Below, piece by piece: positions 15,346 through 62,000 of a stretch of 64,000 bases of DNA. A program made the translations under genes and the position numbers. Numbering within the stretch: position 1 is the stretch's first letter; the number at the start of each line of letters is the position of its first letter. Origin of the DNA: Tetraselmis striata (lineage: Eukaryota > Chlorophyta > Chlorodendrophyceae > Chlorodendrales > Chlorodendraceae). Location: assembly GCA_006384855.1 (NCBI GenBank), contig VCJN01000950.1, positions 1 through 64,000 of the forward strand, read 5' to 3'. The notes under the pieces are model-generated. The model worked only from the letters and a program-made list of their open reading frames with translations, ran no database searches and was not told the DNA's origin.

Positions 15346-16780
15346 ATACAGGCCTAACACGGCGCTAGCTCACCGCGTACCGGTACCGGTTATTTATACA
15401 CCACTGCTAACAAGGAGTTTCTCCAACCCGATCTACATCCCTTCACATAAGTTTGGGGTCCCTTTTCGGCAGTCTCAAGACTTCAGAAATCTAGGGTACC
15501 TGAACGTAGGGTGTATGAGATGAAACCCTGGAATCTCAGAGGGTTTTATAAGACCTGCATGACGAGTGGTTCAAACCGACGCTTAAAGACCTTTGACTAG
15601 GGTGTCACGCTGCACTTGGTGCGTGGATGGGCGTCGCCTGCAACTGCACCAAAACCAGGGTCGGTATCACGCACACGCCGATGCGCGTGAATAGACAACC
15701 GGACGGCGGGATGGCCATGAACGCGTGAGGAAACACATTGACGAGGGGCTCGGGTGCATTTGGTTGGGCTGCAGCCGTGTGGGCGGCAGCTAGTACATGT
15801 CACGTTGCGATACTGACATGGCATTAGTGTTGGCCACGCTCAGCAACACCCCCTTGGCTTTAAAACGCTATAACTTCGTCTCAGAGTTTGCTCAGAAAAT
15901 CTTTTCAAAAATACCTCGCAATGCCTCGTTTGAATCTGCGTCGAAACCAATCTTCCAAAATCAAAAAAATTGTGGGGCCCCGGAAAAATCCCCAAAGATG
16001 ATCATCCAAGTTGCCCCTCACTGCCTCATGTTCCCACCCATGTCGGGGGCGTGGCTTTGCCCCAAGTGCGTGTCTCAGCCCCATACTCGGTTGCGCGAGA
16101 GCGTTATGTGTGTGGATGACCACGATCCACCAACACTTGGCATGTGCCGCCTCCTAGCGATACGCACATCTACCACCCAAAATGCCATTTTCCACAGTAT
16201 TTTTTTAAAGAAATTTCACATTAATTAAAGTCCACGCCCCTACCGCGCCACCGCGCCCACGAAACGGTGGAACTGGCATTCCACCACGCGCCCCCGTAGT
16301 AAAGCATTGCCCTACGCCAAGGGGGCCATCGAGCGCCTCTCCTACGTGCGTTCGCCACAGAAACAGCAGCATTTTCACCCCCAAACTGCTCCCCACAGTG
16401 GCGAACTTGTCGTTGGGGTGTCACGTCGTGCCAATAGTGACATGATTTCAGTGGCCTGCACGCACGGTGTGTGCAACTTATGCCAAGGGCCGTATTCATC
16501 GAGTTTGGTGCGACGAGTGCCGCTATTTCCATAGGTTTGGACGGTTGGCGCAACCCGCAATTTCCTAGCGCCAAAAGCAACGCATCATGCACTGATTCCG
16601 CGTTTTATAAAGGGCGCCCACAAATGGTCGTGTTGTCACGCGGGTGGGCATAAAGGTTTGCCCGAACTATTCCCACTACTGTAGTTAGCATGTATGCACA
16701 TGCAGCCGGCGTTATACTAGCCCATGCATGCGCTTTTCGATCGAAAATGCAAAACCCGGACTTATGTGGAGGGTGTACAT
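15346..16780. other. No recognised gene
   Basis: The sequence has mixed composition. A 143-codon plus frame at 15797-16228 and a 123-codon minus frame at 16221-16592 occur but show no domain or codon bias that I can support. Confidence 0.4.
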
Positions 16781-23908: not shown

Positions 23909-26900
23909 ATGGGCGCCGGCAGGTGCCTAGCCGAGGCGGTGGGCGTGGCGCTGCTGGCGCTGCTGAGCGGATGCGCGGCGGAGCCCTGGAACCTGCCGAC
24001 GTACGAGCTCTGCCACCACTCCCGGCTGGCTCGGATCCCCAACGAGGCCAGCGGCGTCACGTACAGCCATGTCACCAACAGCCTTTACGTCATCACGCGG
24101 CGGCCCAGCGCCGTTGGCGAGTACTCCCTACGCGGTGATTACCTGCGGATGTACTCACACAGCGGCCTGCGTGACCCCGAAGGTGCGCCTCCCGGCACAT
24201 GCATGTGCAGCCGCGATAATAGTGGTACACCCGTACTCGTATAATACTAATGACATGTACTGAATAACTCGGATATTGCACCTGATCCGACTTACACACG
24301 GGTAGTGTTACACTACTCCTCGTACGGGTTTAGGGCCCGTACATCTGGCGGTGCGGGTTTATTCCAGTGTGCTCCGGCGCTCCGGCCCCGGCTCGTAACG
24401 TCCGGAGACGGAGCTGAAGCAACGCCCCTTGACGCGTTCGCGCCACCCAGCGACAGCGACGGCATAGGCCGTATACATCCCGGCGTTGCCTGGAGGTCCT
24501 ATATCTCCCAGGGGCGGCAACGCTGTCCTCCTCGCGTGAAGGCGATCTAACTCCCATCTGCCCCCCCCCCCCCCCCCCCCCCCCCTTCACTCCCTTTTGG
24601 TAGGAATCACTTGGATGTACGACTACAATTTTGCGGTGGCACAGGAGGGTGGAGGCATCGCAGCGATAACAATTATGGAGCTGGCGCCTTGGAGCCGGGC
24701 CGCCATCCTGCAGAAAAAGCTCGTCATGAGAAGCATCCGCTGCCAGTCCAACTTTTGCCTGGAGGGCATCACGTACGACGCCGTCAGCAACGTGTTTTAC
24801 GCGATGCAGGAGATGAACCCCATGCGCATCTGGCGCATTACGATGGACGGCCAGGCCACCCAGATCATGAACGGGCGGGAGAACTGGGACCGCAACATCG
24901 TGCGCGACCTGGCAGGCACGTACTTCCGTCCTGGGGACGACGGGCTGTACATTCTGTCTCAGACGGAGCAAACAGTGATCTTCATGACTTGGGAGGGCGA
25001 GATCGAGGATGATCAGGTGATCCGGGTACGAGACAACGTGGTGGAGGGGCTCACCTTCACCCCTGACGGTGCGCTTATGATCACGGTTGGGGAGCCCAAC
25101 GACCTCTGGATCTACTCAACGGACGGCAACTGCAACTGGCGACCCAGTGACATGGCGCAGGAGGACATGGCGCTGTTGGCGCCGGCCCAGACTGCGCCGG
25201 AGGTTAAGGAGCCCGCCAATGAGCGGGGGTACTGCAACTGGGATGGCTGCGATGGCCAAGTGCAGGGCAGCGAGTGGTGCAGCCTGAATGTGGACCACTG
25301 TGTGCCCGGCTGCGGTGGCACCTGGTGCTGGTTTGGCGGCATTGGGCGTCCCATCTCGCCCGAAAACTACGTGGCACCGGCGCCGCCCGCGCCTCTGGCG
25401 CCGCCAACGGATGCCCCCACCCCTGCCCCCACTCCCCCACGCCCGGGGTTCTGCGGTTGGGACACCTGTGACGGCGGGCGCTCGGAGGACCCATGGTGCT
25501 CTCTCGCGGCCATCAACTGCGTCGTGTCCTGCGGCGGCCAATTCTGCTGGGACGACGGCGGCGAACCTGTGACACGCGACAACATCGACCTCCCGGAGAC
25601 CGCTGCGCCCACGCCCACGCCGGCACCTGCTGCTGCCCCGACGCCCGCCCCCAGCACCTCCCCGGCCACCACCCCAGCCCCACAAACCACAACGCCAGCG
25701 GTGGACCTGCCAGGCACCTCCCCCTTCAACCCCGACTTCGCCAACGGCTCGGAGGCAGTGATCCACATGAGCCTGCAGGGAATGAGCCCCGCTACCTTCA
25801 CTCCACTTCAGCAGCTCTACTTCCGCGAGGTGAGCTGTCGCCCACTCACGGGGCCTGTACATAGGGGCATTTTGCTGCTCTGAAGCCGTAACAGATGGGC
25901 CGTCCCCTGATTTGCTGCTGCTGCTTTCGTGTTTCTTTACAGGCAGTTGCGAATGCCGCATATGGCAACCCGGACGCCTTTCTGATTGTGGTGTTTGACA
26001 TCAACGGCGGCAACGACCTGTACAACCTCTTCTCAACTGTGTTTGAGGACAGCCTGGACCAGGAGTCGGTTGGCGATGTGCTGGACGCCATGGCGGGCCG
26101 GAACCGCCGGCTGCTGCAAGAGCAGGTGTGTCACGCTCGATACCACCCTCCTGGAGCATCTCGCCAGAGGGTTGTGCCTGCTGTGTTTTTGTACACGGTC
26201 AGGTCACAAATCTCCGTTCATTTTGGAAGGCTGGGTCAAATCTCTTCGTAGCTGTCCTGACACCCTCATGTTGAAATTGACCATCCAGGAGCATCTGGAG
26301 GTGAAGGTCCATCTTCTGGGGGAGACAAAGCAACACGCTCTGCTGCTGGCTACAAAGCTCCAGAACGCCGTTGACACCGGGGCGTTCGAGTCTGACCTCA
26401 GGACGCGCGGCTTTGTCCGCAACACGGCGGTATCCGTCCTGGATGTCGACGTGCAGGCCGTGAGCGTGGCGCCACAGTACTACCCGCCAAACCTGGTCAA
26501 CACGGAGGAGGAGGCAGCGCAGGTGCCTGTGCTGGTGCCGGACAGCTACGAGGAGATTGAGGTCACGGACTCTACACCCTTTGGCCTGGACACCAACACC
26601 ATCATCATCATCGGAGGAGCAGCCGGTGGCGTCCTGGTGACCATTATTGGGATTGCTGCGACGGTGTGCGTATGCCGACGCCGCAACCGTGCGGGCAAGG
26701 CACAGAACACCTCAGGTGCGCCATTGCTTTTGGCCTGCTACCACCCCCCCCCCCCCCCCCCCCCTTCTGTCCATGTGTACAACTATAAAAAGCTTGGAAT
26801 TGAACATTTGTTACATGCAAAGAAAGCCGCACTGAAATCCTTTTCTTCTCGTCTTGTCTGGCTGGTTTTCAGGGAGGAAAGTATCCTTTGAGAACGGTGC

Positions 26901-29815: not shown

Positions 29816-30131
29816 ACATGAGCTAGCAGCAGAAGGCGATATCAGGAAATCACCAAAAAAAAAGGGCAATCAGAAAGGTCCTCTACAGCGACTGCGAGGT
29901 GGAAGCAGTAACATGTGAAGACGCAGAATGGGCACGAGCCCACGCATCAGACTTGGCCATTTGCACACCGGCAGAGAGAATGCCGCCCAGGGGCCAGGGT
30001 ACCATGCACGCAAGCCGGAAAGTAGAGTACTAAAACAGAACATTTAAATACACCCAAAGCTGCTCCCCTCCAAGCGCTCCCACGTTGCCCGTGCCGGCTG
30101 CTCGGCCGCCGGGGCTGAGCCGGCGTCTGCA

Positions 30132-31220
30132 ATGCGCTCGGCGGCCGACCTCCGAGCTATCCCGCATTACTCGGACTTCCCCTTGCACTCCATGCGGAAA
30201 GTACAAGAAACCCTGAGCCACCGCATTCACACGGTCCGTTTCGCAAAGCTCGTTGCGCGTATGCCTACAAGTGGCCCTGACAGCAACCGCTTCCGAGGCC
30301 GCCTCTTACGCGGTGCGACAGCGTTCTTGGTGACTGATCCTCCAAGCGAGGGTCGCCTTGGTGAAGTCCGTGAGCGTTCCCCTGAGTACTACGATTCCAT
30401 GTTCCGTGTTGCCGCTTGCCGCCCATTTGGCCTTCCGGCAGCTCCTGTCCTCTCCCTTGGCGAGCCATGCCCTTGTGCTTCTTGCTCCTTCTCGGTACAA
30501 GGCATGCTGGCCCGTTTTGAGGATGCTGGCGTGGAGTTCACTCCTTCAACTTGGGCGGTCGCGTACGCTGATCACGTGGCACGTTGCTCTGGGGGCAACT
30601 CCAATCACGCCGCACACGAGTGGGCCGCACATGGCCTTTCCGACATTTGCCACGACGTGAAGTCCGCGCTGGGCGTGGGTGTCCAGATCCTCACGGACCC
30701 GTCGGTGCTTGTTTCTCTCCCGAAGGGCAGCGACGGCCGGCCGGCCGATGTTGGGCTTTTCGGATATGGCGGTATCCGCGGAAACACGGTTGCTATCGAT
30801 ACCACCATTGCCCCCATCCTCGGCGTGTCAAGCTCGGATCCAACGACTGCTTTGAGGGCTGCAGAGCGCCACAAAATCCAGAAGTATGACGAGGGTGTCC
30901 GAAACGCCGCCGGCATGCTTCGCTTTGTTCCTTTCGCCGTTTCCGAGTTTGGCTCGCTGGCCCCGCACGCCGAGGCTTTCTTGGTGGAGCTCGCGAAAGC
31001 TAGCCACACACACACTGGCCAAAAAATCGGCCAGCTCTTGTCTGCGTGGCGCCGCCGTTTCTCCTTGCTCATCAACATGGCACATGCAGACAACGTTCTT
31101 GGCGGGGTCGCGTCCGCGCGTGCGGCACGTGATGGTACTCCTGCGCCTGCGTCGCGTCGCTCGTCGGCATGTGTTGCTATGACCCGGGTCATTGGCTGCA
31201 AGCGTCCTCGCCGCGGCTGA
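30132..31220 (+). CDS. Intact ORF resembling the restriction-like nuclease tail of non-LTR retroelements (362 aa)
   Basis: A single unbroken frame runs from ATG 30132 to TGA, GC-rich and with good codon bias. The C-terminal half has the order seen in the tail region of many LINE-type reverse transcriptases: a cysteine cluster (PCPCASC, 114-121), DHVARC and histidine residues near 150-165, then RPADVGLFGYGG, VAIDTTIAPIL, ERHKIQKYDEG and LRFVPFAVSEFG. The D...(D/E)-x-K spacing (PADV, IDTTI, HK) suggests a PD-(D/E)XK-like nuclease, by inference. No reverse transcriptase domain lies before it: the N-terminal 110 residues (MRSAADLRAIPHYSDF) match nothing I know. The ORF sits 320 bases left of the 5.1-kb transposon but outside its inverted repeats. 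It could be a solo domain captured by another element or a host gene derived from one. Confidence 0.55.
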   Translation: MRSAADLRAIPHYSDFPLHSMRKVQETLSHRIHTVRFAKLVARMPTSGPDSNRFRGRLLRGATAFLVTDPPSEGRLGEVRERSPEYYDSMFRVAACRPFGLPAAPVLSLGEPCPCASCSFSVQGMLARFEDAGVEFTPSTWAVAYADHVARCSGGNSNHAAHEWAAHGLSDICHDVKSALGVGVQILTDPSVLVSLPKGSDGRPADVGLFGYGGIRGNTVAIDTTIAPILGVSSSDPTTALRAAERHKIQKYDEGVRNAAGMLRFVPFAVSEFGSLAPHAEAFLVELAKASHTHTGQKIGQLLSAWRRRFSLLINMAHADNVLGGVASARAARDGTPAPASRRSSACVAMTRVIGCKRPRRG

Positions 31221-31541
31221 TAGCCTACCCCGGGGCGGGGGTCCCTTTGGTCCCTGGCAGCTAAGTGATTTCGTGGTTCCCTTGGCTCCTTCTTGGTTCT
31301 TGGCTCCCTGTCCTCCTGCTCGACCTTGGTTTCAGGCTTATGTCTCTCTTTTGCTGGCAACCTTTCACAGTTGACGTTAGTTCTGTTTGTAGTGCGCTTT
31401 TGTGAAAGCCCTTATGTAATTAATTTTAAATACACCCACCCACCTAATAAGAAATAATTATTAAGAAGAAATAATTACATATATAGCAATAATTCCCATT
31501 TCACGACTACGACGGTACTGGGGCGTGCCAGCAGTGAGTAT
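31221..31541. other. Spacer between nuclease ORF and transposon
   Basis: The 3' flank becomes AT-rich (TTAATTTTAAATACACCC, then AATAATTATTAAG) and ends at the AT target duplication of the transposon (31540-31541). Confidence 0.5.
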
Positions 31542-31660
31542 AGAGGAGTTCCACAATAAGGTGCCCGTACAGAATTACGGTGTTAAGCAGTCGTACCCGT
31601 ATTTTCGCTACGGAGAACCGCTCCGCCGCAGCCCAGGGCCAGCGCACCGCGCCCGCGCAG
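31542..31660 (+). repeat. Left terminal inverted repeat
   Basis: The repeat starts AGAGGAGTTCCACAATAAGG, continues GTGCCCGTACAGAATTACGG and ends in the GC-rich ACCGCGCCCGCGCAG. It lacks the GCC present after AGAGGAGTTCC in the right repeat. Confidence 0.92.
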
Positions 31661-31739
31661 TTGCATTGCTGACCGCCGTCGGCACATCGTCATTCCAACC
31701 CTAACCGCACCTGACCGCTCCGTGTTGGCCACCCACGAG

Positions 31740-34173
31740 ATGGGCATCCCAGGTCTCCTTACCCTCGTTGACCCCATATGCGAGAAGACCAACTTGTATG
31801 CACTGGCCCGCGGGAGGCGTTTAGGCATTGACGGTCACGTTTGGATGCACCAGTTGGGCTACCACCACGCGCAATCCATCGTCTTGGACAAGGACTACGA
31901 GCCGCTCGCCAAGCACTTCCTGCAGCAAACACAGTCTGTTCTCGGGCGAGGGGTAGACCTTTTGTTTGTCTTCGATGGAGCACCCACGCCCGCGAAGCGG
32001 TCTACAGACTCCGCGCGTCAGGTTAGGCGTGCGAAAGCGTATGCCGCAGTTCAGTACGATGGCGCTGAAGCCGACCCTAAGATGCTGCGCGCCGCTGTTT
32101 CCTTGGGATGGCCGGCTGTCGTGGCAGTGTTATCACAGCTCCGCCGCGCAGGGATCCCCTACATCGTCGCGCCCTTTGCGGCAGACGCGCAGCTGTCTTT
32201 GCTTGCGCGCGACGGGAAGATATGGGCTGCAGTCACAATCGACAGCGACTTCATCATCCACGGCTTGCCCAGGGTTTTTCTTAAGGTCAGCTGGAGGTCA
32301 GGCCGTTGTCTTCTGTACTCCAAGGCGGTGCTGCAGGATCCTGACCGGAGGCCAGAACTGCCATCCAAGTTTAAGCCGCCGCAGCAGCTTTTACCCATCG
32401 TGAAGGATGCTGGGCTGCCTGCTCGGTTGTGCTTCGGGGCTGCTGGACGGCTGTGATTATGGTACCAAGATAAGGGGTGTCGGTGTGGTGAAAGCCGCGG
32501 AAATCCTGGAGGATGTGGTTAAGCAGCATGGTGCTGTTGCGCTCCAAGATGTCAGAGGAGCAGTGACTATGATGGCGCAGGAAGTTCTAAAGCACCTCCA
32601 CAGGCGGGGAGGAACCCCCCCCCCCCCCCCCCCCCTCTTCCCAAAATGGTAACTCCAGTGCCAACTTCACATTGTGGAGTGCTATTTTTTCTATTCTTTT
32701 TTCTTGCCAAGTGTGCACTTTAAACAATTCTGCATCACTATTCTGCATGCTGTGTGCTGTGCAGATTTTGATGCCGATGCATGGATACCTACTGCACTTA
32801 ACGCCTTGATGTATTTCAGCACGCGCTGGCGTATAATCCCGAAACGCGCAAAGTGGAGACTGTCGACCATATGCCAATCAACGAGGCCATCACGCGCTGG
32901 CCCTTCCTCGGCTTCAACATCAATGATTGTGATGCGGAGGGCAGGGCATTGGGCCTCATCACCCCTGCAGGGGCAACTCAGAAGCTACCTCATGTGAGCA
33001 GTATTCGCACTCCAGCCATTGCAAGGCAGCTGACAGAAGATATGGTCTTGGGCCCAGAGCTGCGGGAGCCTTTTCCATTACCAAATGAACATGGTGAGTG
33101 GCCGGCTGACTTCCGCCCGATCGTTGCACGACTGCGGCACTGGTGCCGTACCAGGCATGGAATGCCTTTATTCTCTGGGGCATCTCGCTCCGACCTAGTG
33201 AGGCGGGTGAAGGAGCGTCAATTGGTGGAGAAAGAAATGCAGGATAAGGAAGAGCGGGTGCTGTCTCGTGACCCGCATGGCCGCAGTCTCCAGGATCATA
33301 TTCTGTCCAGTCACCCTGATCAGGCATGGCATTTCGCTGAGGCTACTGATGGCGAACGACAGGAGCTGCTGCCCACAGAGGGCTGGGTGACTGGCATTCA
33401 ACAGATTGGGCGCGATGCGCCCACTGTGGATCAGACGCTTTTGCTGTCGCACTGGGAGCACAGATTACACCTGCTGAATGGTGGTACGCGTACAATCCTG
33501 GACGACGCCTTCTCCCGCGTTGCGGAGATGCAGCACCTGCCTCACTTTGCGTTTCACCCCAATGAGAACGCAACCATGCCTCGCACTCGGCATGGAGGGT
33601 GTCAGAGGTCGGTCTTCTTCAAGTTTTCAGCCCCAGCCAGCCAGCGTATGGAGACAACCTACCACGTGTGGGTGGAGTGCAGCGTGTCAGCACTTCCAGG
33701 CTTGCGCCCTTTCATTTCCCGCATCCTGCGTTGTGGCTGCACATGCCCTCTGAGATCAAGTGCAGATTGTGTGCATTTGCTCGTGCTTATGGTGGTCATT
33801 CTGAACCTGCCGCGCCCATGGGGTGAGCCACCCTGCACCTCTTTGCGCTGCGCATGGCTGAATCCTGGGAACGGCGACACCTACGACGTCACCACCCCCT
33901 TGCCTTTCATTCCATTCATGCGCACCAGCTTCACTCCTCAGCGCCTCAGTGGGATGGGACGCAAGTGGGATGGCGAGGCGGGTGCTGCCCTTTTCAGACA
34001 ATGCAGGGTGGCGCTACAAGTTCAACCTTGTGCCACTCGCGGACCGCGATGCCGTTCAACATGGCCGCAACACTGCAGCACGTGTGGCTGCCAGGGAGGC
34101 GCTATGGGAGGAGATGCAGCGTGCCCTAAACGGAGACCGATGTGCAGCCGATGTTGCGTGGCGTGGGCTGTGA
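31740..34173 (+). CDS. FEN1/EXO1-like (Rad2/XPG family) nuclease with SWIM-like zinc motif, interrupted
   Basis: ATG 31740 starts MGIPGLLTLVDP, the hallmark N-terminus of Rad2/XPG nucleases. Acidic metal-ligand positions are visible: D31 (RLGIDGHVWMHQ), D79 (LLFVFDG), D149 (PFAADAQ), D168 and D170 (TIDSDF), then the helix-hairpin-helix GLLDGCDYGTKIRGVGVVKA from about 32440. The usual glutamate of P-Y-E-A-D-A-Q is alanine (A147). The frame shifts by one base near 32404; a possible intron covers 32600-32840 (a C run is at 32617-32635). HALAYNPETRKVETVDHMPI resumes at 32844, as in the EXO1 region after the hairpin. Further on, CGCTCP...CVHLLVLM (about 33728-33790) fits a SWIM zinc motif, followed by CTSLRCAWLNPG. 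The C-terminus probably changes frame near 33945 and ends at TGA 34171 (ALWEEMQRALNGDR). XPG enzymes cut flaps and 5' ends; a role in processing transposon ends is inference. Confidence 0.7.
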
Positions 34174-34373
34174 GCTTGATGTTGTGGCTGCAAACACGTA
34201 TTTGTGCTGTGTGCATGCAGTGCAGGGCAGAGCAACATATGGTAGGCCACATCATAGGCCGGGTGGGACAGGGGCCCTCACCCATACCCTTCCACAAGGT
34301 GGGGGATATATATGTAATCATCATCCACATTATTTTACGTGTGAGACGGTTCAGAAATAGATATTGCATTACA

Positions 34374-36431
34374 TTAGAAGTCTGCCTCTGCAGCCTCTTG
34401 CTCTGCATCCACCGCATCAGTGGATGTTGAGCTGCAAAGAGGGCGCTGCAGGTTGCACAGATGTCCTACGACATTAAAGGCCTTCTCTATCATATCTAGA
34501 GAGTACAGAGACAGTTTCTTACCAGAGAAGGCCCTTCAGTTCTGCACGCGGCTGAAATGCCGCTCTACATGGATGCGCAGGTTAGACTTCTCTCCGTTGC
34601 CCTGCCTCTCATCCGCTGTGTAGTGACGCTGCCCCTGCCAACGCCGCGCTGGTGCAACAATGCGTGCACCGCGCGCAACAACCAACGCCTCGCACTGGTC
34701 AAACCCCTTGTCTGCTGGGATGCAGTGACCCCTCTGCATGATCTGCAGCCAGTGGGAAACGCGTAATATGTCTGTGTCTGAGATGCGGCCAGGATATGCT
34801 TGAGAGGTACCGCAATAGGCACCCACAGGGAGGACTGCAGCCAACAACTTGGCTGTGTGGGTTGTTTTGTAATCGGAGTAACATGTCCGAGCTGCTTTCC
34901 TGCTGCATGGCTGCTGGAGCCTGAGCTCTGTGCAGTCCAGCACAAACCGGACCAACGCGCCGTACGCCTCCCTCCACTCAGGATGCACCCGGTCCAACAT
35001 ATCCGCCGTGCTGGGGACGGGGAACTCCGCTTTGAAAACTGATCAAGGTAAGAAATCCATGTCGGGAAAATGCGGGTGAGGCACGACACCTTGATTCCTG
35101 ACCACGCACTGATGACGCGGGTCCCCAGCCCAGTGCGTAGTTTCACCAGAGTGACCAGCAAAGCATTCTGCGTAGTGAAGGTCCGCTGTTCCGGTTTCCC
35201 GACTGACTCGCGTTGTGCAGTGCCATTAGCCTCCGCCTCCATGCGCTGCATGCTCTGCTTGCCGTTCCAGTAGCGCAGCCGGTCCGCCACTCCCTCGCAG
35301 TTCACCCATTCAAAGAATTTCTGCAGAGACTGGGCAGTTGGAAACCCAGCAATGTGATTGATGCAAGCATTCCAGGCAGAACCTTCCTTCATCACATTCT
35401 CCCATGTGAGCCGGTCCACCAGTCCGTCCAGCATGCCGTCAATCTCCGCATTTTTCCTCTCCAGCTCCTTAGCCAGGTTAGCTATCACATTGCCACATGT
35501 GAGCTGAGCAGCGCCAAGCTGCGCCTGCACGTGCTCAAGCTGCTCCATCAGCACCTCCTTCTCCCTCGCCGCCTGCCCAAGCTTCTCCCGCAGCCTCTCC
35601 GCCTCTATTTTTGTTGTTTAGTAAGGATTCTTGTTGTCCGCCAATTGTTCCTCCAACAGCTTAATTCTCGACCGCATGTGGGAAACCCCCAGAGGGTCCA
35701 TCTCTGATGCACCAGACCGAGGGCGAGGAGCAGGCGGTTGCTGCATGGGCTCATTTAAACCGCCGCGTGGCAGCGGCGAGCCCCAACGAGCCGGGGCACT
35801 AGGCGGCAGCCTAGGTGAGGGGGGGATGTTCTCCTGCTCCCTAATGCTCGGAGATCTTGGCCTCACTCTAGAGAGGACAGAGGACGTAGCTGCTCGCTGT
35901 TGGCTGTTTGTGCTTATGCTCCTGAGCGGTGACCGAAACGCTGCCCGCGGACCTACCGGCGTCGACGGCTGCACACCAGTGGAGCCTACTGCGGCAGCCA
36001 TGCCAGCTCCACGGGAGAGAGGGCGCTGACGCACGGGGGTAGCAGCGCTGACGGGCGGCGGCCGCGGCGCTTCCCGTCGCGCGCAGTTTTGGTCAACTGC
36101 ATCCTTGAACGGCAGAGGGGTTGCACCGGGCTTCAACGCCTTACCCACCGCGCCACCTTTTCTCTTGATGTCCCTTTTGTCGCTGTCCGCGAAGTGGGAG
36201 GTGTGTACCTTGTAGCTCCTAGGATGCTTGAGCTCCTTGCTTGTCGCGGTAAGTTGGGTCATTGAAGACGAGGATGTCGACGACCTTCCGGTAGTGGTCT
36301 GGGTCACGCGCGAGCGTGTCCATGCCATGCGCATTCTTGGTGACCGGTTTGCGACAGTTCGGGTGGTTGCAGACGCAGTATTCCCCGCGTGCATCTTTCG
36401 GGGTGGGTAGCGGAGTGTTTTGCGTCGACAT
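34374..36431 (-). CDS. THAP-domain DDE transposase (DDE_Tnp_4 type), interrupted
   Basis: ATG 36431 opens MSTQNTPLPTPKDARGEYCV. An N-terminal THAP-like finger has CNHPNC, then HPRSYKVHTSHFADSD and KPGATPLPF, equivalent to the C-x-H-F and AVPTPF elements, although the cysteine before S-H-F is histidine. A Pro/Ser-rich region and a coiled coil (KLLEEQLADNK, RLREKLGQAAREKEVLMEQL) lead to a helix-turn-helix (LLVTLVKLRTGLG, TRIFPTWISYL) and the catalytic core: VLDCTELRLQQP (first D), IPADKGFDQCEAL (second D), NLRIHVERHFSRVQ (E). A C-terminal exon with DMIEKAFNVVGHLCNLQRP follows an intron that ends near 34497. Single-base frame changes near 36237 and 35035, a TAA near 35619 and a TGA near 34537 interrupt this copy. 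Catalytic residues are kept, so the breaks look recent or are consensus errors. Confidence 0.75.
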
Positions 36432-36517
36432 GATGTGGGTATGAGAGGTAGGAGATGACGATGTGGTGACTGGCGACAAGATGTCTGAGCAATGTGGGAG
36501 CGACCGAGTCAACAATT

Positions 36518-36639
36518 CTGCGCGGGCGCGGTGCGCTGGCGCTGGGCTGCGGCGGAGCGGTTCTCCGTAGCGAAAATACGGGTACGAATGCTTAACACCG
36601 TAATTCTGTACGGGCACCTTATTGTGGCGGAACTCCTCT
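36518..36639 (-). repeat. Right terminal inverted repeat
   Basis: On the minus strand it reads AGAGGAGTTCCGCCACAATA and then follows the left repeat to ACCGCGCCCGCGCAG. A G-rich tract (36649-36675) lies just outside. Confidence 0.92.
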
Positions 36640-36800
36640 ATGGTGGAGGGGGGGGGGGGGCGGGGGGGCGGGGGGTTTGTATGGGGATAGGGGTTATGAG
36701 CCTGTGACGAAGCCGCCGCCACCACGAGTACCATAGTGGCCGCCATATCTCATGAAGTTCGTTCCATATAGTCGCTATTTCCCGCGCGTTTCGTGAATTT

Positions 36801-37108
36801 TTTTGTTATTAATATACGATGAGTCATGAATCGCGCTGCAGCAGCAGTATAGCGACTTTATACGGTCGTCTGACAGCATTATATCAGTGAATTCACGTTA
36901 ATTGGGCGGGACACGCGAAGGCACGTCCTATCGTCCTATCGAAGACTTATTAGCGACTATGGGGAGAATTAGTTTTTTATTGTACGAACGATAAGTCATG
37001 AATCGCCCTGCAGCAGCAGTAGTAGCGCTTTGTAGTCGTCTGACAGCATTATTAATATCAGTGAATTCACGTTAATTGGGCGGGAAACGCGAAGGCACAT
37101 GTCCTCGC
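36801..37108. repeat. Imperfect direct duplication, about 170-bp period
   Basis: Two copies (about 36801-36935 and 36973-37108) share GAGTCATGAATCG-like, CTGCAGCAGCAGTA, CGTCTGACAGCATTAT and GTGAATTCACGTTAATTGGG. They lie just outside the tyrosine-recombinase region and could be its subterminal repeats. Confidence 0.75.
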
Positions 37109-43470: not shown

Positions 43471-44639
43471 AAGTCCAGGTGTTGGTCTAGCATACCCAAA
43501 CCGAGCATGATAGCAAGCCCTGGGGGAGGGCTTTTAGGCCCCGCAACCCCACTCGGTTTATGTTGACATAAAACCGGGTCGATTGACCGCGTGGGTGGGG
43601 GTGCTCTTGGGTGCGTCATCAATATTTTTGGCACACTTTTAACATCCACTAGCCTCCCGGACTGTCTCGTAATTACTACGTAATGGCATATAATCGCGAT
43701 TTCCCCATGATATGGCTGGGCACGCAATCCCCGTATCTACCGTGTAATCGCCACGTCACCGCTAGGCTCAGTAGTCACAATGACATGCCCGGCTCGCCGC
43801 GTTCCGGGTGCTACCTCCTACCTCCTACCATGGGGACCGAAATCGCGATTACCTGTCATTACGTTGTAATTACGAGACATGTTCCGACCAGAAGGCTAGT
43901 GTCTGCTCCGCGTCCACCCACCGCGGCAAAGTTTGCTCAAGGGTTCCAACGAGTGGATGTTGAACATGTAGATGATAAACCAAGGTGGTACCATAGGGGC
44001 GGGGGCTGCGCTTTCGAGCGGTTATTACGGGCCGGGGAGGGGCTGGGACTCTTGGGAGATGCGTGCGGCGCCCGCATCTCCGCGTGTGGGTCGGGGCGCT
44101 ACCGACCGGGGCTATAAAGGCTCCACCAATCCACACATGTGCATATGTGGCGCTGGCGCCCGAGCGACGCCAGCTGGCGACGCCGAACGGGAAGGGAGAT
44201 GATAAGAAATTGGGACACGGAATAGTGCTCAGATGAACCACGTGCTACCTGAGTTACAAGGCGAGCTAGTGATGGTCGTCAGCTCGCCGCCGTTCGCGGC
44301 GCACCCGTAGTGCGCGACGAACGGGCGGTATCTCATGCATGCATACGTGCCGACACCTACTCGGCACTTCTTGGACGGAACTCGCCGCTTCCGCTGCCCC
44401 GCCCCTCGGATGCTAGCTAGTGACGCTAGGATGAGCTTTCATAACTTCGGCGTGGCGAAGGGCATGGTGACGGTTGTGCTGGTCCGCGACGCGGTAGGTG
44501 CGCGGCATATCCAGGAATCCGCGGTCAACCCACCTTGCTTGGACTTTCCACCCCTGTCCCCGAGTTCACCACAGCATACAAGTGGGTATACTCCTCTGAC
44601 GAAAGCCCTAAAAAACAATTTCATTAAGGCTATTAAGCT
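43471..44639. other. No recognised gene
   Basis: The stretch contains two stretches related to AATCGCGATT...ATTACG (near 43690 and 43840) and GC-rich sequence 43980-44200. No domain is recognised in the frames present. Confidence 0.4.
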
Positions 44640-44915
44640 CCCGGATTACATCATATATGGCCAAGATTGGGACAACTACCCCAGTGTACCAATAATGGTG
44701 TACCAATAAAACTACCCCACGATGGAGATTCATGGACTACCTCTGGTCCGGTGGTCGCTAGCGCCCCGTCAAGGCAGGCCTCGTATGCAAATTAACCATA
44801 TTAAATCCAGGACACGCCGGATCGATCTGTCACCCTCACTGCGAGAACCGGGAATCGAACCGGCGACCTCTCGTACAAGAGACCTCTGCTCTGCTACGCG
44901 ATGTGCTGAGCGGTC
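44640..44915 (-). repeat. tRNA-derived SINE-like repeat, copy 2
   Basis: The minus strand starts with a tRNA-like head (CGCGTAGCAGAGC, TCTCTTGTACGAGAGG, B box CCGGTTCGATTCCCGG at 44847-44862), then continues CCGGCGTGTCCTGGATTTAA and GGTTAATTTGCATACGAGG, parallel to CCGGCGTGTCCCGGGTTTAC and GGTTGATGCATTAG in copy 1. The 3' end is approximate. Confidence 0.6.
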
Positions 44916-45577: not shown

Positions 45578-48500
45578 ATGGCGCCCACGAGCAGCCGCGC
45601 GGTCGGGGTGACCACATTCGTGCTGCTGGGCCTCGCTGCATGCGCGATCGCGGAGCCCTGGAACTTGCCAACGTACCGAATGTGTCGCCAGGTCCGCCTC
45701 AGCGGCGTGACACACGAAGTGAGCGGAACCACCTACAATGCAGTCACCAACAGCTTGTGGGTCGTCACCCGGCGGCCGCGGGTGATAGCCGAGTACACCA
45801 TGACCGGGCGCAAGCTCCGCACCGTCGGCCATAACGGGCTGGTGGACCCTGAGGGTGCGGCGCCGCCACAGCCTGCACCGTCCAGCTTCGTGCCTGTTTC
45901 CGTTTCACTAGACACATTGTAGGGTCTCGGTCTTTACCTTCCTTACAGCATGGTATGGTTAAGATCAATATCACATCGTAGGCACATGATGCCATATCGA
46001 CACAGGTGCGCGACCACCTCCGACGGCGCGTCGCCGTTGCGACCGGGCTATATCCCTGTCCAGAAACAAAACCTCGCGGTCGCGCCGCTTGGAATGCCGT
46101 CGGCTGTGAACGCTGTCTATCGCGCAACCCCACCCCTTCTCGCGCGGTCCGCGCCAGAGACGCTTGCCTGTCCGAATCCTACACGATGTTGCTCGACAGG
46201 CATCGCCTGGATGTGGGACTACACGTTTGGAGTCGCCGAGGAGGGTCGGGGCCGCGGGTACGCTATCACGATCATGAGCGCCGAGCCCTGGCGGCGCGAC
46301 GTCCGCGTCGAGAAAAAGATCGACCTCAGCCGGTTGCCAGACCAACACTCCGGCTCCGGCCTGGAGGCGCTTACCTTTGATCCCGTGGCGCGCGTGTTCT
46401 ACGCCGCACAAGAACAGAATCCAATTCGTCTATATCGAGTGGAGCTGGACGGGCGCACACGCCAAATGTTCTCGCAAAAACCCCGCGGCGAGTTTTACGG
46501 CCGCGACTTCGCCGGTCTTCACTTTCGGCCGGGCCACGACGCGGTGTACGTCCTGTCAGAGGCAGGCGAGACCGTGAGCAAGATCAGCCTCGACGGCAGG
46601 ACAATAGGGGCGCCTCTGCGAGGAATCCGTGGCCGTATGCCAGAGGGCCTCACCTTCACGCCCGACGGTGCGCTGATGATAATCGCTGGCGAGCCGGATG
46701 AGATGTTCTTCTACACCTCCGTGGGCACCTGCGATTGGACTCCTGGCGCGCCTCTTCCCGATTACTATGACCCGCCTGCGCAGAGCGCCGAGTCCCCGAG
46801 CGCCGCTTCATGGCTGGACAAGCCCATAGGTAACGGCGCGATGCACACCTGGTGATTGCATGCTCCAACATAAATGTGGTTCTTGAACCCCCTCCTGTCC
46901 ATTGGCTATGCTCGCGTGACTGATGTGTAGTGTGCATGTGTCCGGAAATATTCATAGACGACAACACTATAGTTGTGCGCCTCAAGCTGGAAGGCATCAC
47001 GCCGGAGCAGTTCAGCCCTCTTGCCCAGATCTACTACAAAGCGGTGAGTCTGATACTCTGCTCGCCGTGAATAGCCACACTGGTCCGAATTTTGCAGAAA
47101 TTGACAACAGCAGGACTAACCCCCCTCCCCCTCTCCCTTCTCTCTCCCCCTCCTCCCTGGGCCCTCCTCGTGCAGGCAGTGGCCATAACTGCCTATGGTG
47201 GCAGCCTCGACGTGCTCCCGCTGGTAACCATGCCCCGCGTCACAAGCACCGACGGCGCCATGTTCACCGAGGTGCACATCAAGCTGCGCCAGGGCGAGGA
47301 CGCCGAGGCGCTGCGAACCACTGTGGAGCACGCCATCGAGACCGGTGCCTTCTACACCACACTGGCCTCCCTCAGCTTCCCGCACTCGGACATCACAGTG
47401 ACAATTGTGGAGACGGATGAGGGCGACGTGGAACACGTGGATGGCCCTGATGGCGCCCCTTACGCCTCGGGCTATGAGGGCTACATCACCCTGCGCATCA
47501 GCGACCTCCCCCCCATCCAATTCACGCCGCTGTTCCAACTGTACCTGCGCTCGGTGGGGCCCCCCTTTACTCCGATGAACCCCTTCACCATGGATCCACT
47601 GCACCCCAGCAGCTCCCTGATTTCACCGCTGATTCTGCCGGTGGCTGTGCACGCAGGCTGTGTCCTCCGCTGCTTATGGCAGCAGACAAGCCTTATCGCT
47701 GGTGGAGGTAACCGAGTCTGAGCCCATGCCGGTAAGCTGGGGCCCATCTGCTCTATTGCCTTTACATGCCGCGCCACGCACTGGCTTCCATCTGAGTCAT
47801 TTCTTCTTTTTGGGCCACCACTGGACGCTGACTCTGTCTCTGTTGCTCTCCACCTCAGTCGCAAGTGGGGATGGTCGCCACACTGCGCATCCTGGCTCTG
47901 ACCCTGGAACATGCCCAGACGCTTCTGAGCAACGTCTCCGAGGCGGCCACCAACGGCACATTAGCTCAGAAGATTACCGAGCTTGGGAGCGAGATCTCGG
48001 TGACTTTTGCTGTTGGCCCCATTACCTTCCGCGAGTCGGAAGTACCCCCGGAGGACTTCCCAGTGCAGGAGCTGGAGCAGCTCAACACTGCCAGCGTGCC
48101 TGGGGATGCGGACTATGAAACCACCATGGCGTTCCTGGAGGACGACGAGGGCGCAATCGGTCTGACCGGCAGCAACCTCTTCATCCTGGTTGGCTGCTCC
48201 GCTGTCGGCGGGGCGCTGGCGGCCGTCATTGCTGTTGTGGCCTACAGGAAGATTTCTAGCAAGAAGACGCGCCTCACTGACAAGCCGGAGGGTGAGGACA
48301 CTGTGGAAGCCTGAGTTTTAATCATTCATGCCGTGTACCAATGCTCGGTAGCACCATGAAGGGGGAGGGACGAGTGTCGATTGTTTCTTGGCAAGCATGA
48401 ATGGATGCTGAGCTTGTGGCACTTGTGTGTGTCTCCAGCAGGGGTGGAGCTCGAGGAGTCGCAGCCGCACCAGCAGCCAGGTGCATTCCATTCTCCGGTG

Positions 48501-59000: not shown

Positions 59001-62000
59001 GCGAGGTAGCCCACGCACGGCAAGGCACCGCGGCATGGGGGTTGGCCTGGGAGCCGTGTCGGGCGGCACCTGGCGCTGCAGCACACGGCTGTCGTCGTAG
59101 AAGGCGCGGGCGTCGCACTCCTTGGCCCTCTGCGAGAAGATCGAGTCCTCCAGGCGCCACTGACGCGGCGGCAGCGGCCCCACCCTCTTGACATTCCACG
59201 GGCGTCTGGTGTACTTGTCCTTGGTGTCCTTCGAGCGCGGGGGCTGCGAGAGCGAACGCGCCGTGTCAGCGCTCGCAGCGTTGGCGAGCAGCGCGGCGCA
59301 GACAGCCCGGCGAATAGCTACGGGCCCCGCCCCGGTGACCATGAACTGCAGGGGAGATACCGCCCGGTAGGCAGCCGTGAGCCAGAGGTCCGCGCGCACC
59401 ATAAAGTACGCCCGTTTGGCGTGTAGCTCCTCGAGCTTCGTGGCGTAAATGCCCCTGAGCGCGGCGTTACCTGCGCGCGGAAAATCCGCCTCGGTGACTG
59501 TCAGGAAGGGGGCACAATGGAACTGGTGATGCTGTTGTCGGGAGAGGGGGGGGGGGGTCAGCTGGGCGGCTGGGGCAGCCCCCTCACCTGGGTCCTTCTT
59601 CACCTTGCCATGCAGTGTGCGCACCAGCTCCGACACCCACCGCGCCTCCTCCTCCAGCTCCTCCGCCGCCACCTCGTCGAACGCCACCGCGTTGGCCTCG
59701 CACACAGCGTTCCACATCTACGGCGGCACGCATTGCATCCTTCAGAGGCCGCCCCCCTCGCCATCATACACAGCTCGGCTGCGGACTGCGGGTAGCGGAG
59801 CGCATCATGATTGCAGGCGTCTGGATATGCCCATCTAGCAACGCTATTATCTTTCACACACCCTAAGTGCGGTCGGCCATAATCTCGATGCACGTGATGC
59901 TCACTACATATATGCAAATATGAAGTAACTTGACGGTTGAATCAGCGATGCGTCGATTGTTCAGAAAAATTTAAAAGAACGGGTTCTATATCACTGGCCT
60001 ACAGTTCCATGAATTGTATTGCCAGCGCTTTTAAGTAGTCGCTACCAGCGGCGAGCGTTTGCATTGCCAGCGCTTTGAAGTACCAGAGTTTTTTTTTCCA
60101 TTACCAGCAGCGAGTAGCGAGTACTAGTACCAGTACCAGCAGTTCTGGGGAACTGCCCTTTCTGTAATTCACACCAGTACCAGCAGTACCAGCAGCGAGT
60201 AGCGAGTACCAGTAGTACCAGCAGCGAGCGTTTGCATTGCCAGCGCTTTGAAGTACCAGAGTTTTTTTTTCCATTACCAGCAGCGAATAGCGAGTACCAG
60301 TACCCGTACCAGCAGTTCTGGGGAACTGCCCTTTTTGTAATTCACACCAGTACCAGCAGTACCAGCAGCGAGTAGCGAGTACCAGTACCAGCAGCGAGCG
60401 TTTGCATTGCCAGCGCTTTGAAGTACCAGAGTTTTTTTTTTCCATTACCAGCAGCGAGTAGCGAGTACTAGTACCAGTACCAGCAGTTCTGGGGAACTGC
60501 CCTTTCTGTAATTCACACCAGTACCAGCAGTACCAGCAGCGAGTAGCGAGTACCAGTAGTACCAGCAGCGAGCGTTTGCATTGCCAGCGCTTTGAAGTAC
60601 CAGAGTTTTTTTTTCCATTACCAGCAGCGAGTAGCGAGTACCAGTACCCGTACCAGCAGTTCTGGGGAACTGCCCTTTTTGTAATTCACACCAGTACCAG
60701 CAGTACCAGCAGCGAGTAGCGAGTACCAGTACCAGCAGCGAGCGTTCGCATTGCCAGCGCTTTGAAGTACCAGAGTTTTTTTTTCCAGCAGCGAGTAGCG
60801 AGTACCAGTACTCATAGCCTCCCAACCGTGAGATCGTAATCGGACGGCTGTGTAATTAAGGGCCGTGGGCGGGCGGGTGGGTGGGCGGGTGGGTGGATTA
60901 TAGTACTTAGTAGTGTATTCCTGTAGATAAGCGCTTTAGTCATGCACCTATAGGCCCGATCCGCTGCACTATACGGGTATCCGTACGGCAATAAAGCTCA
61001 CCGCCGAAAAATCGACGCTTCGCTGGATAAGCTGTGTATCTAGAGGTCCTGTTGATTGTCCTTGGAACAAGCTGCGGGCATGTGTATATTGCGCATACAT
61101 ACACACGCGAGATATCCGGCGGCTTTGAACAACACAACAGCGCAAGTTAGCCCGGGTGCGCACGCTCCCGATGGCGGGACCGGAAGCATGTGGCAAAGGC
61201 GCAGCCCCGAGGGTTGGCAGCACCACCTTGCGGTTCTGGCGCCTCAGCACGCTGGGGCAGCCGTGCGCGCCAGAAAACCCGTAGTCTTCGTGGTCGAGCA
61301 CGTAGGGCTCCAGCTGGGAGGGCAACCGAAACAGCCACCGGTCGGTCCGGCAATTAGAACCCTTACAGCGGCAGCACACCGCGGCGGGAAGGGAGGGGGG
61401 TGGGGTGGGGGGGGGGGGGGTCTGAGAGAGGCGCACTTGCCTGCTCATACTGGCTCAGCTGCTGGCTCAGCTCCTGCCGCCTCTGCCGGCGCTCCTCCTC
61501 TAGGCTGGCCTGTGGCACGGCCTGCTGCTTGGCCTTCCTCGCCGCTGCCGCGGTCATGTCGTCCCAGGTCTGCTCTGCCCAGAGCGCCGCTCTCTTGGCG
61601 CACTCTGCGGGTCGATGGCGGCAAGAGACCGGCCGGTCCCGCTGCTGGTGATGAGACAGAGCATGATGCGCACGGTGCGGTGGAACGTCAGCTGCACGGC
61701 GGGTGGCGCGGGCAGGGCAGCGCACCCTCATCTGTGAGCTCCTGCGGGGCCGGGATGGGGACAGCGGTCGGTCGAGCCATATCCTGCCCCCAAACCTCCA
61801 GCAGCCCCGCCCGCTTCTTCTTGCGCTCCTCCGCCGCCTTGCCCAGCGAGTGGCTGTCCATCCTCAGCAGGTGGCCGATCACGTCGTTCTGCTTGCGCAA
61901 CCTGACCCGCTGCTTCAGCTGGCCCCAGAACTTCTTGCTGGGGCGGTCGGGGCCGGCAGGCGCAGGCACGACTTGCCGTGTATCCGTTTTGGGCGGCAGC

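Follow-up and report, generated by a model that had tools for sequence, protein, structure and literature searches.

Some DNA transposons carry an accessory nuclease beside their transposase and, to our knowledge, the reason for this has not been settled. ISL2EU elements, as described in the parts of PMC4482050 devoted to them, duplicate an AT dinucleotide within an A/AT/T target (slashes set off the duplicated dinucleotide), encode a transposase with DDE, helix-turn-helix (HTH) and THAP domains, and in most autonomous candidates have a second open reading frame (ORF) for a YqaJ nuclease; their terminal inverted repeats (TIRs) usually start with GG, and all of the 25 families came from animals. 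Accessory nucleases of other kinds are reported in the Kolobok sections of PMC9587614, namely a DEDDh enzyme in KolobokD, a lambda-exonuclease-like enzyme in KolobokE and a His-Me enzyme in KolobokP. The DNA analysed here (the window) comprises the first 64,000 nt of contig VCJN01000950.1 of the Tetraselmis striata assembly GCA_006384855.1. Positions 31542-36639 hold a transposon of this chlorodendrophyte green alga, with a DDE_4-type transposase on one strand and, on the other, a predicted EXO1-like nuclease joined to a SWIM-like module. This suggests that the element may bring a DNA-end-trimming enzyme which helps it to move or to multiply.

With a well-understood repair enzyme, EXO1, as the apparent model of the second gene product, a concrete and testable function, flap trimming or 5' resection, can be put forward, and the YqaJ partner of ISL2EU is a natural counterpart for comparison. 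The element would also represent the recruitment of a core repair enzyme by a mobile element, possibly from a eukaryotic host, followed by its retention under selection.

The gene pair, its copies and their ends

The T. striata assembly (224 Mb, 2903 contigs) yielded 42 transposase and 82 nuclease matches, from which we merged 33 places with a related transposase. A nuclease was found within 10 kb at 27 of the 33, in all 27 cases on the opposite strand and in convergent orientation, whereas the chance expectation was approximately 0.005 nuclease neighbours per transposase place. Pairwise identities of the two proteins were closely correlated (r = 0.96; 28 pairs, not independent of one another, from eight elements chosen as subfamily representatives out of 19 with enough coverage).

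Both TIRs were present at 10 of the 13 loci examined, which gives 11 two-TIR copies with that of the window; where these align with the window element over a long stretch, they match it at 94-98 %. The first-pass annotation had called for other copies with the same TIRs and both genes, and its interpretation would have been refuted if they lacked the nuclease; of the 11 (the window copy among them), 10 have at least parts of both genes, the only exception being a 0.8-kb deletion derivative. This derivative (L032, G000:C2631, approximately 43895-44685) resembles a miniature inverted-repeat transposable element, being internally deleted with both TIRs kept. Other copies are damaged in different ways: in the C1445 copy a deletion has removed a piece with two of the DDE residues, and in the C2768 copy (L033) the nuclease gene is interrupted near the end of exon 1 by an insertion of approximately 4.7 kb.

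A more diverged family (family 2: C2683, C1259 and C2011) was 53-54 % identical to the window element in the nuclease and 58-59 % in the transposase, and its AT-flanked TIRs, AT/AGAGTTTTTCCACAATAA, are distinct from those of family 1. The nucleases of family 1 (F1) and its sister F1b were 78-79 % identical, with proportions of synonymous (pS) and non-synonymous (pN) differences of 0.75-0.77 and 0.19-0.22, respectively; the corresponding ratios of substitution rates (dN/dS) were 0.10 for the C-terminal part of the second protein and 0.16-0.20 for the transposase, all of these figures being rough because synonymous sites were near saturation. Ratios within F1 (0.53-1.15) rested on few changes and were little informative. 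The nuclease is under purifying selection between subfamilies, and the transposase and nuclease have been kept together through long divergence.

The inverted repeats of 120 bp, the AT flanks and the extent of the element were all called correctly in the first-pass annotation. The TIRs are approximately 120 bp long, with 98 % complementarity in a 110-nt core, and an AT dinucleotide stands at either side. Family 1 copies mostly end AT/AGAGGAGTTCCAC...GTGGAACTCCTCT/AT, some ends being altered, and the TIRs start with AGAGG in family 1 and AGAGT in family 2. A paralogous empty site was obtained for two of nine joined flanks among the loci examined. The joined flanks of the C1398 copy matched an uninterrupted part of the window at 90 %, and those of the C2218 copy, whose left AT reads AC in the filled site, matched L002 at 75 %. 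Since both empty sites carry a single AT, the target duplication is the 2-bp AT. A TA duplication, with ends readable as TA/GAGG, was ruled out, the C1398 empty site having no extra two bases. The flanks favoured T/AT/A, with T at the left in 11 of 16 and A at the right in 10 of 13 readable ends, counted by eye from the ends of family 1 and family 2 copies.

The nuclease and its SWIM-like module

Plus-strand Pfam matches to XPG_N (E 4.7e-11) and XPG_I (E 3.7e-10) placed the second gene in the Rad2/XPG family, and by eye it matches gene model TSEL_010930 (P0002) of the T. striata assembly. NCBIfam gave only weak FEN1, Rad2 and IS5 names, all below cut-off. A profile of 12 element-type nucleases scored 108 bits against EXO1, 76 against FEN1, 57 against RAD2 and 39 against GEN1; this element-only scoring repeated one with a profile that included EXO1 rows, and the ranking was alike. 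A FEN1-like identity was ruled out by these scores. The enzyme, which the first-pass annotation had described as a FEN1/EXO1-like member of the Rad2/XPG family, can therefore keep its family and its EXO1 affinity but not its likeness to FEN1, and is classed here as EXO1-like from its predicted protein.

Features of the EXO1 branch are present, namely the XPG N and I regions and the seven acidic metal-binding residues, which were invariant in the 12-row element-type alignment. Of 21 T. striata copies compared, 14 have all seven, and the remaining seven copies are changed or uncovered at one or more positions. The best solved relative by profile was eukaryotic EXO1 (PDB 3qea), which has the same acidic residues; unlike it, the element nuclease is transposon-encoded and joined to a SWIM-like module. 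Altogether 48 nuclease homologues were collected, of which 18 entered one alignment and 12 another; the tree was built from 28 together with seven extracted T. striata sequences. A phylogeny against FEN1, EXO1, GEN1 and XPG of the host had been proposed in the first-pass annotation. The 35-row tree obtained, which is rooted on two FEN1 rows and has none for XPG, GEN1 or the host EXO1, placed all 18 element-type nucleases (seven from T. striata, one from Prasinocladus and 10 assigned by similarity) in one clade on the EXO1 side, with support of 100/99. EXO1-named proteins fell outside this clade, with the exception of P0017, named exonuclease-1 in its source, which fell within it.

The nuclease is joined to the SWIM-like module by splicing. 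The transcript-derived protein P0052 (mmetsp) and the C2226 copy agree at 697 of 697 residues when one 152-nt GT-AG intron is removed from the latter. The SWIM motif of the first-pass annotation (CxCx(n)CxH) was found as CxCx7CxH, its four residues invariant in a 10-row alignment, although assignment to Pfam SWIM stayed below cut-off: the E value was 0.08-0.21 in three of eight second-ORF proteins, with a further match at 0.13, and the other five of the eight gave no match. The module had a single match in PDB, at E 0.93. At 25 of 30 SWIM places in the genome, a nuclease lay upstream on the same strand. No YqaJ was found among the 10 matches to C-terminal relatives, and none of the viral contigs scanned contained a relative. 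Outside T. striata, equal contig sizes suggest that nuclease and SWIM are paired in P0007/P0056 (8284), P0008/P0058 (18063) and P0011/P0053 (3070).

Diverged nuclease and SWIM pairs were also seen at G000:C1619:336116-338168 (L083 in part; identities to the queries of 40 and 27 %), C418 and C1728, with no transposase match nearby among the matches listed. They may be relics, or may stand for older lineages that had a different transposase.

Resemblance to a eukaryotic repair enzyme would also be expected if the nuclease were the alga's own EXO1 or FEN1 gene, or if two TIRs had on a single occasion enclosed a gene that lay there by chance, a case raised in the first-pass annotation. We consider this hardly credible because the convergent pairing recurs at 27 of 33 places, the two proteins diverge in parallel, the nuclease shows the mark of purifying selection and the element-type enzymes form one clade; the nuclease recurs with the transposase in diverged subfamilies, and family 2 has TIRs of its own. 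There is also a separate candidate for the host EXO1 (C2863:80350-80938, two neighbouring matches), which the element nuclease query, with its 82 matches, did not pick up. Inspected by eye, the other XPG-family matches (C2450, C1069) were similar to XPG and GEN1. Repeats that arose by chance around a host gene were likewise ruled out, by the other copies, the gene pairing and the empty sites.

The transposase and comparison with ISL2EU and Kolobok

DDE_Tnp_4 was detected in the minus-strand transposase of the window (E 1e-23) and of the C1116 copy (E 1.5e-25), and HTH_Tnp_4 was above cut-off in the window (E 1.5e-6) and in family 2 (E 1.7e-8) but below it in C1116. The transposase could be read whole in the C1116 copy, where it has 684 residues if counting starts at the first Met of its N-terminal block; its catalytic residues D498, D573 and E622 were invariant in a five-row alignment, and some T. 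striata copies are without one of the catalytic residues. The DDE_4 core reported in the first-pass annotation was thus found, together with an HTH domain, whereas the THAP finger was not: Pfam gave no THAP match for the transposase N-termini at E ≤ 1 or for P0049 at E ≤ 5, and a search of PDB with a profile built from five N-termini gave no match at E ≤ 10. The N-terminus has a conserved Cys/His pattern ending in HxxHF, which may be likened to a THAP finger, THAP itself being unproven. IS5-like matches were weak and far below cut-off.

An IS5-like DDE_4 transposase, TIRs and a short target duplication mark the element as one of PIF/Harbinger-ISL2EU-Spy (PHIS) type. In comparison with the parts of PMC4482050 and PMC9179366 that describe ISL2EU, it resembles that group in having two ORFs in approximately 5 kb with a nuclease as the second, an AT duplication, an HTH and DDE_4-type transposase, and TIRs inside the reported range of 6-259 bp. 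It differs in that the second ORF is EXO1/XPG-like (XPG_N/XPG_I) rather than YqaJ, the TIRs start with AG rather than the usual GG, the flanks favour T/AT/A rather than A/AT/T, THAP was undetected by profiles, and the host is a green alga whereas the ISL2EU families of PMC4482050 are from animals. Since the YqaJ partner, the GG start, the A/AT/T target and (by profile) THAP disagree, the element is ISL2EU-like but is not called a member of ISL2EU, from which it is set apart by these published descriptions.

YqaJ as a hidden partner was ruled out, as the genome gave just two YqaJ matches, and neither of their contigs appeared among the DDE_4 matches listed (150 of 187 candidates). One YqaJ gene (L076, G000:C2605:158500-164500) is surrounded by long ORFs in GC-rich sequence that has the look of an integrated virus, not of a transposon.

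Like the Kolobok lineages in the sections of PMC9587614 consulted, the element adds to the DNA transposons that carry differing accessory nucleases, but it belongs to another transposase superfamily and no XPG/EXO1 enzyme was found there, the words XPG and FEN being absent from the main text. No published transposon family combining XPG/EXO1 with DDE_4 was found among the papers listed from the open-licence PMC literature, Repbase lying outside this search, nor was a transposon with an XPG/EXO1 partner found in the portion of PMC12730594 covered. Within that literature, the new architecture suggested in the first-pass annotation holds in so far as XPG_N/XPG_I stand where YqaJ would be expected; for the other half of the claim, that YqaJ was replaced by an XPG-family enzyme in this lineage, we infer the replacement from the comparison. 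The simplest reading would be a substitution of one 5'-to-3' exonuclease for another whose fold is unrelated. More tentatively, and with confidence a little short of balanced, it can be proposed that a deep PHIS lineage of chlorodendrophyte algae and metagenome organisms gave up the YqaJ of ISL2EU, took on an EXO1-type nuclease in its stead and retained a SWIM-type module, and that the second gene has to supply transposons of this kind with 5'-strand resection, whatever the fold of the enzyme.

Proposed role of the nuclease

YqaJ is of the lambda-exonuclease type and also digests 5' strands. On balance we favour a two-gene, cut-and-paste PHIS transposon in which the transposase would bind the TIRs and make the cuts and joins, the SWIM-like part would bring the nuclease to the element ends or to chromatin, and the nuclease would remove 5' strands at ends made by transposition. 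The nuclease might act on the donor break, by 5'-to-3' resection, on the insertion junction, where it would trim 5' flaps, or on both, and repair would then restore or complete a copy which might otherwise be lost to end joining. Resection of the donor ends is favoured because the YqaJ partner of ISL2EU is also a 5'-strand enzyme. A role at the new site only, where the nuclease would trim 5' overhangs left by transposase cleavage so that 2-nt gaps could be sealed, with no steering of donor repair, follows close behind, though we think it rather unlikely. Gaps of 2 nt at insertion follow from the AT duplication and the XPG/EXO1 family is generally known for flap activity, but the enzyme is of EXO1 type and not of FEN1 type, and host FEN1 or EXO1 could serve any transposon in this way. 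Other PHIS groups, moreover, have Myb-like partners or none in the sections of PMC4482050 and PMC9179366 that treat them.

DNA-binding partners in other PHIS groups (PMC4482050, in the same sections) are also what lends colour to a third view, that the second protein is chiefly a DNA-binding or targeting factor acting through its SWIM-like module, like the Myb-like partner of Harbinger, with nuclease activity secondary. Two copies that keep the tail and SWIM without the nuclease core (C1842 and C1199) would fit this view. It nevertheless seems improbable, given the purifying selection on the nuclease core and the invariance of its seven acidic residues in the 12 relatives; in the SWIM-only copies inspected, the SWIM part is interrupted by stops and preceded by other sequence.

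Several observations weigh against the favoured role in resection at transposition-made ends. The nuclease core was undetected at six of the 33 transposase places; the SWIM part is kept at three of these six (C1199, C2170 and C1842), and in the two that were inspected, C1842 and C1199, the core has been lost. P0052 starts at an internal Met, approximately 60 residues into the nuclease, so that the nuclease N-terminus is without transcript support. A transposase and a nuclease on one contig have been demonstrated in T. striata only. The window copy is itself dead, having lost the catalytic residue E147, the nuclease frame and the splice donor and gained two transposase stops, and better-preserved copies exist elsewhere in the genome. 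The step assigned to the nuclease is one that we infer from its sequence, and the argument from a shared 5' polarity is not general because accessory nucleases of opposite polarity occur in other transposons, KolobokD carrying a 3'-5' DEDDh enzyme (PMC9587614, Kolobok sections).

Feature coordinates and surroundings of the element

Table 1. Features of the element and of the related empty site, in window coordinates
Feature	Position	Strand	Basis and remarks
Paralogous empty counterpart of the C1398 insertion site, outside the element	15720..15904	+	Single AT, no element; evidence for AT duplication
Left AT target-site duplication	31540..31541	.	Copy flanks and empty sites of two other copies
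Left TIR, starts AGAGGAGTTCCACAATAAGG	31542..31660	+	Inverted-repeat comparison; at least 26 matches in own genome
EXO1-like Rad2/XPG nuclease (predicted), exon 1	31740..32611	+	ATG at 31740; +1 frameshift near 32438; E147 is Ala; donor GT lost near 32612; Pfam XPG_N/XPG_I and C2226 alignment
Intron	32612..32764	+	152-nt GT-AG intron in the transcript-matching C2226 copy; donor mutated in window
Exon 2: EXO1-type tail (QHALAYNP), linker, SWIM-like module	32765..34172	+	Frame broken in window copy
CxCx7CxH SWIM-like motif (CTCPLRSSADCVH)	33738..33776	+	Motif match and alignment; Pfam SWIM below cut-off
Transposase: N-terminal Cys/His-rich domain, coiled-coil-like stretch, HTH_Tnp_4, DDE_Tnp_4	34374..36431	-	Two stops and broken frame in window copy
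Right TIR	36518..36639	-	Inverted-repeat comparison; genome matches
Right AT target-site duplication	36640..36641	.	Window letters and copy flanks

Just outside the element, a plus-strand open frame of 390 codons (30048-31220) had no Pfam match at E ≤ 0.01, and a similar frame adjoins another copy of the element (L081, C1842). In gene model P0002 this frame and the nuclease are fused, apparently as an artefact of annotation. Directly to the right of the element, at 36816-37098, are repeated blocks with a spacing of approximately 170-174 bp, and a tandem array with units of approximately 173 bp occupies 60043-60811. Two open frames matching SdiA-regulated (PF06977; E approximately 5e-13 each) lie 20 kb apart in the window, at 24540-25880 and 45923-46852.

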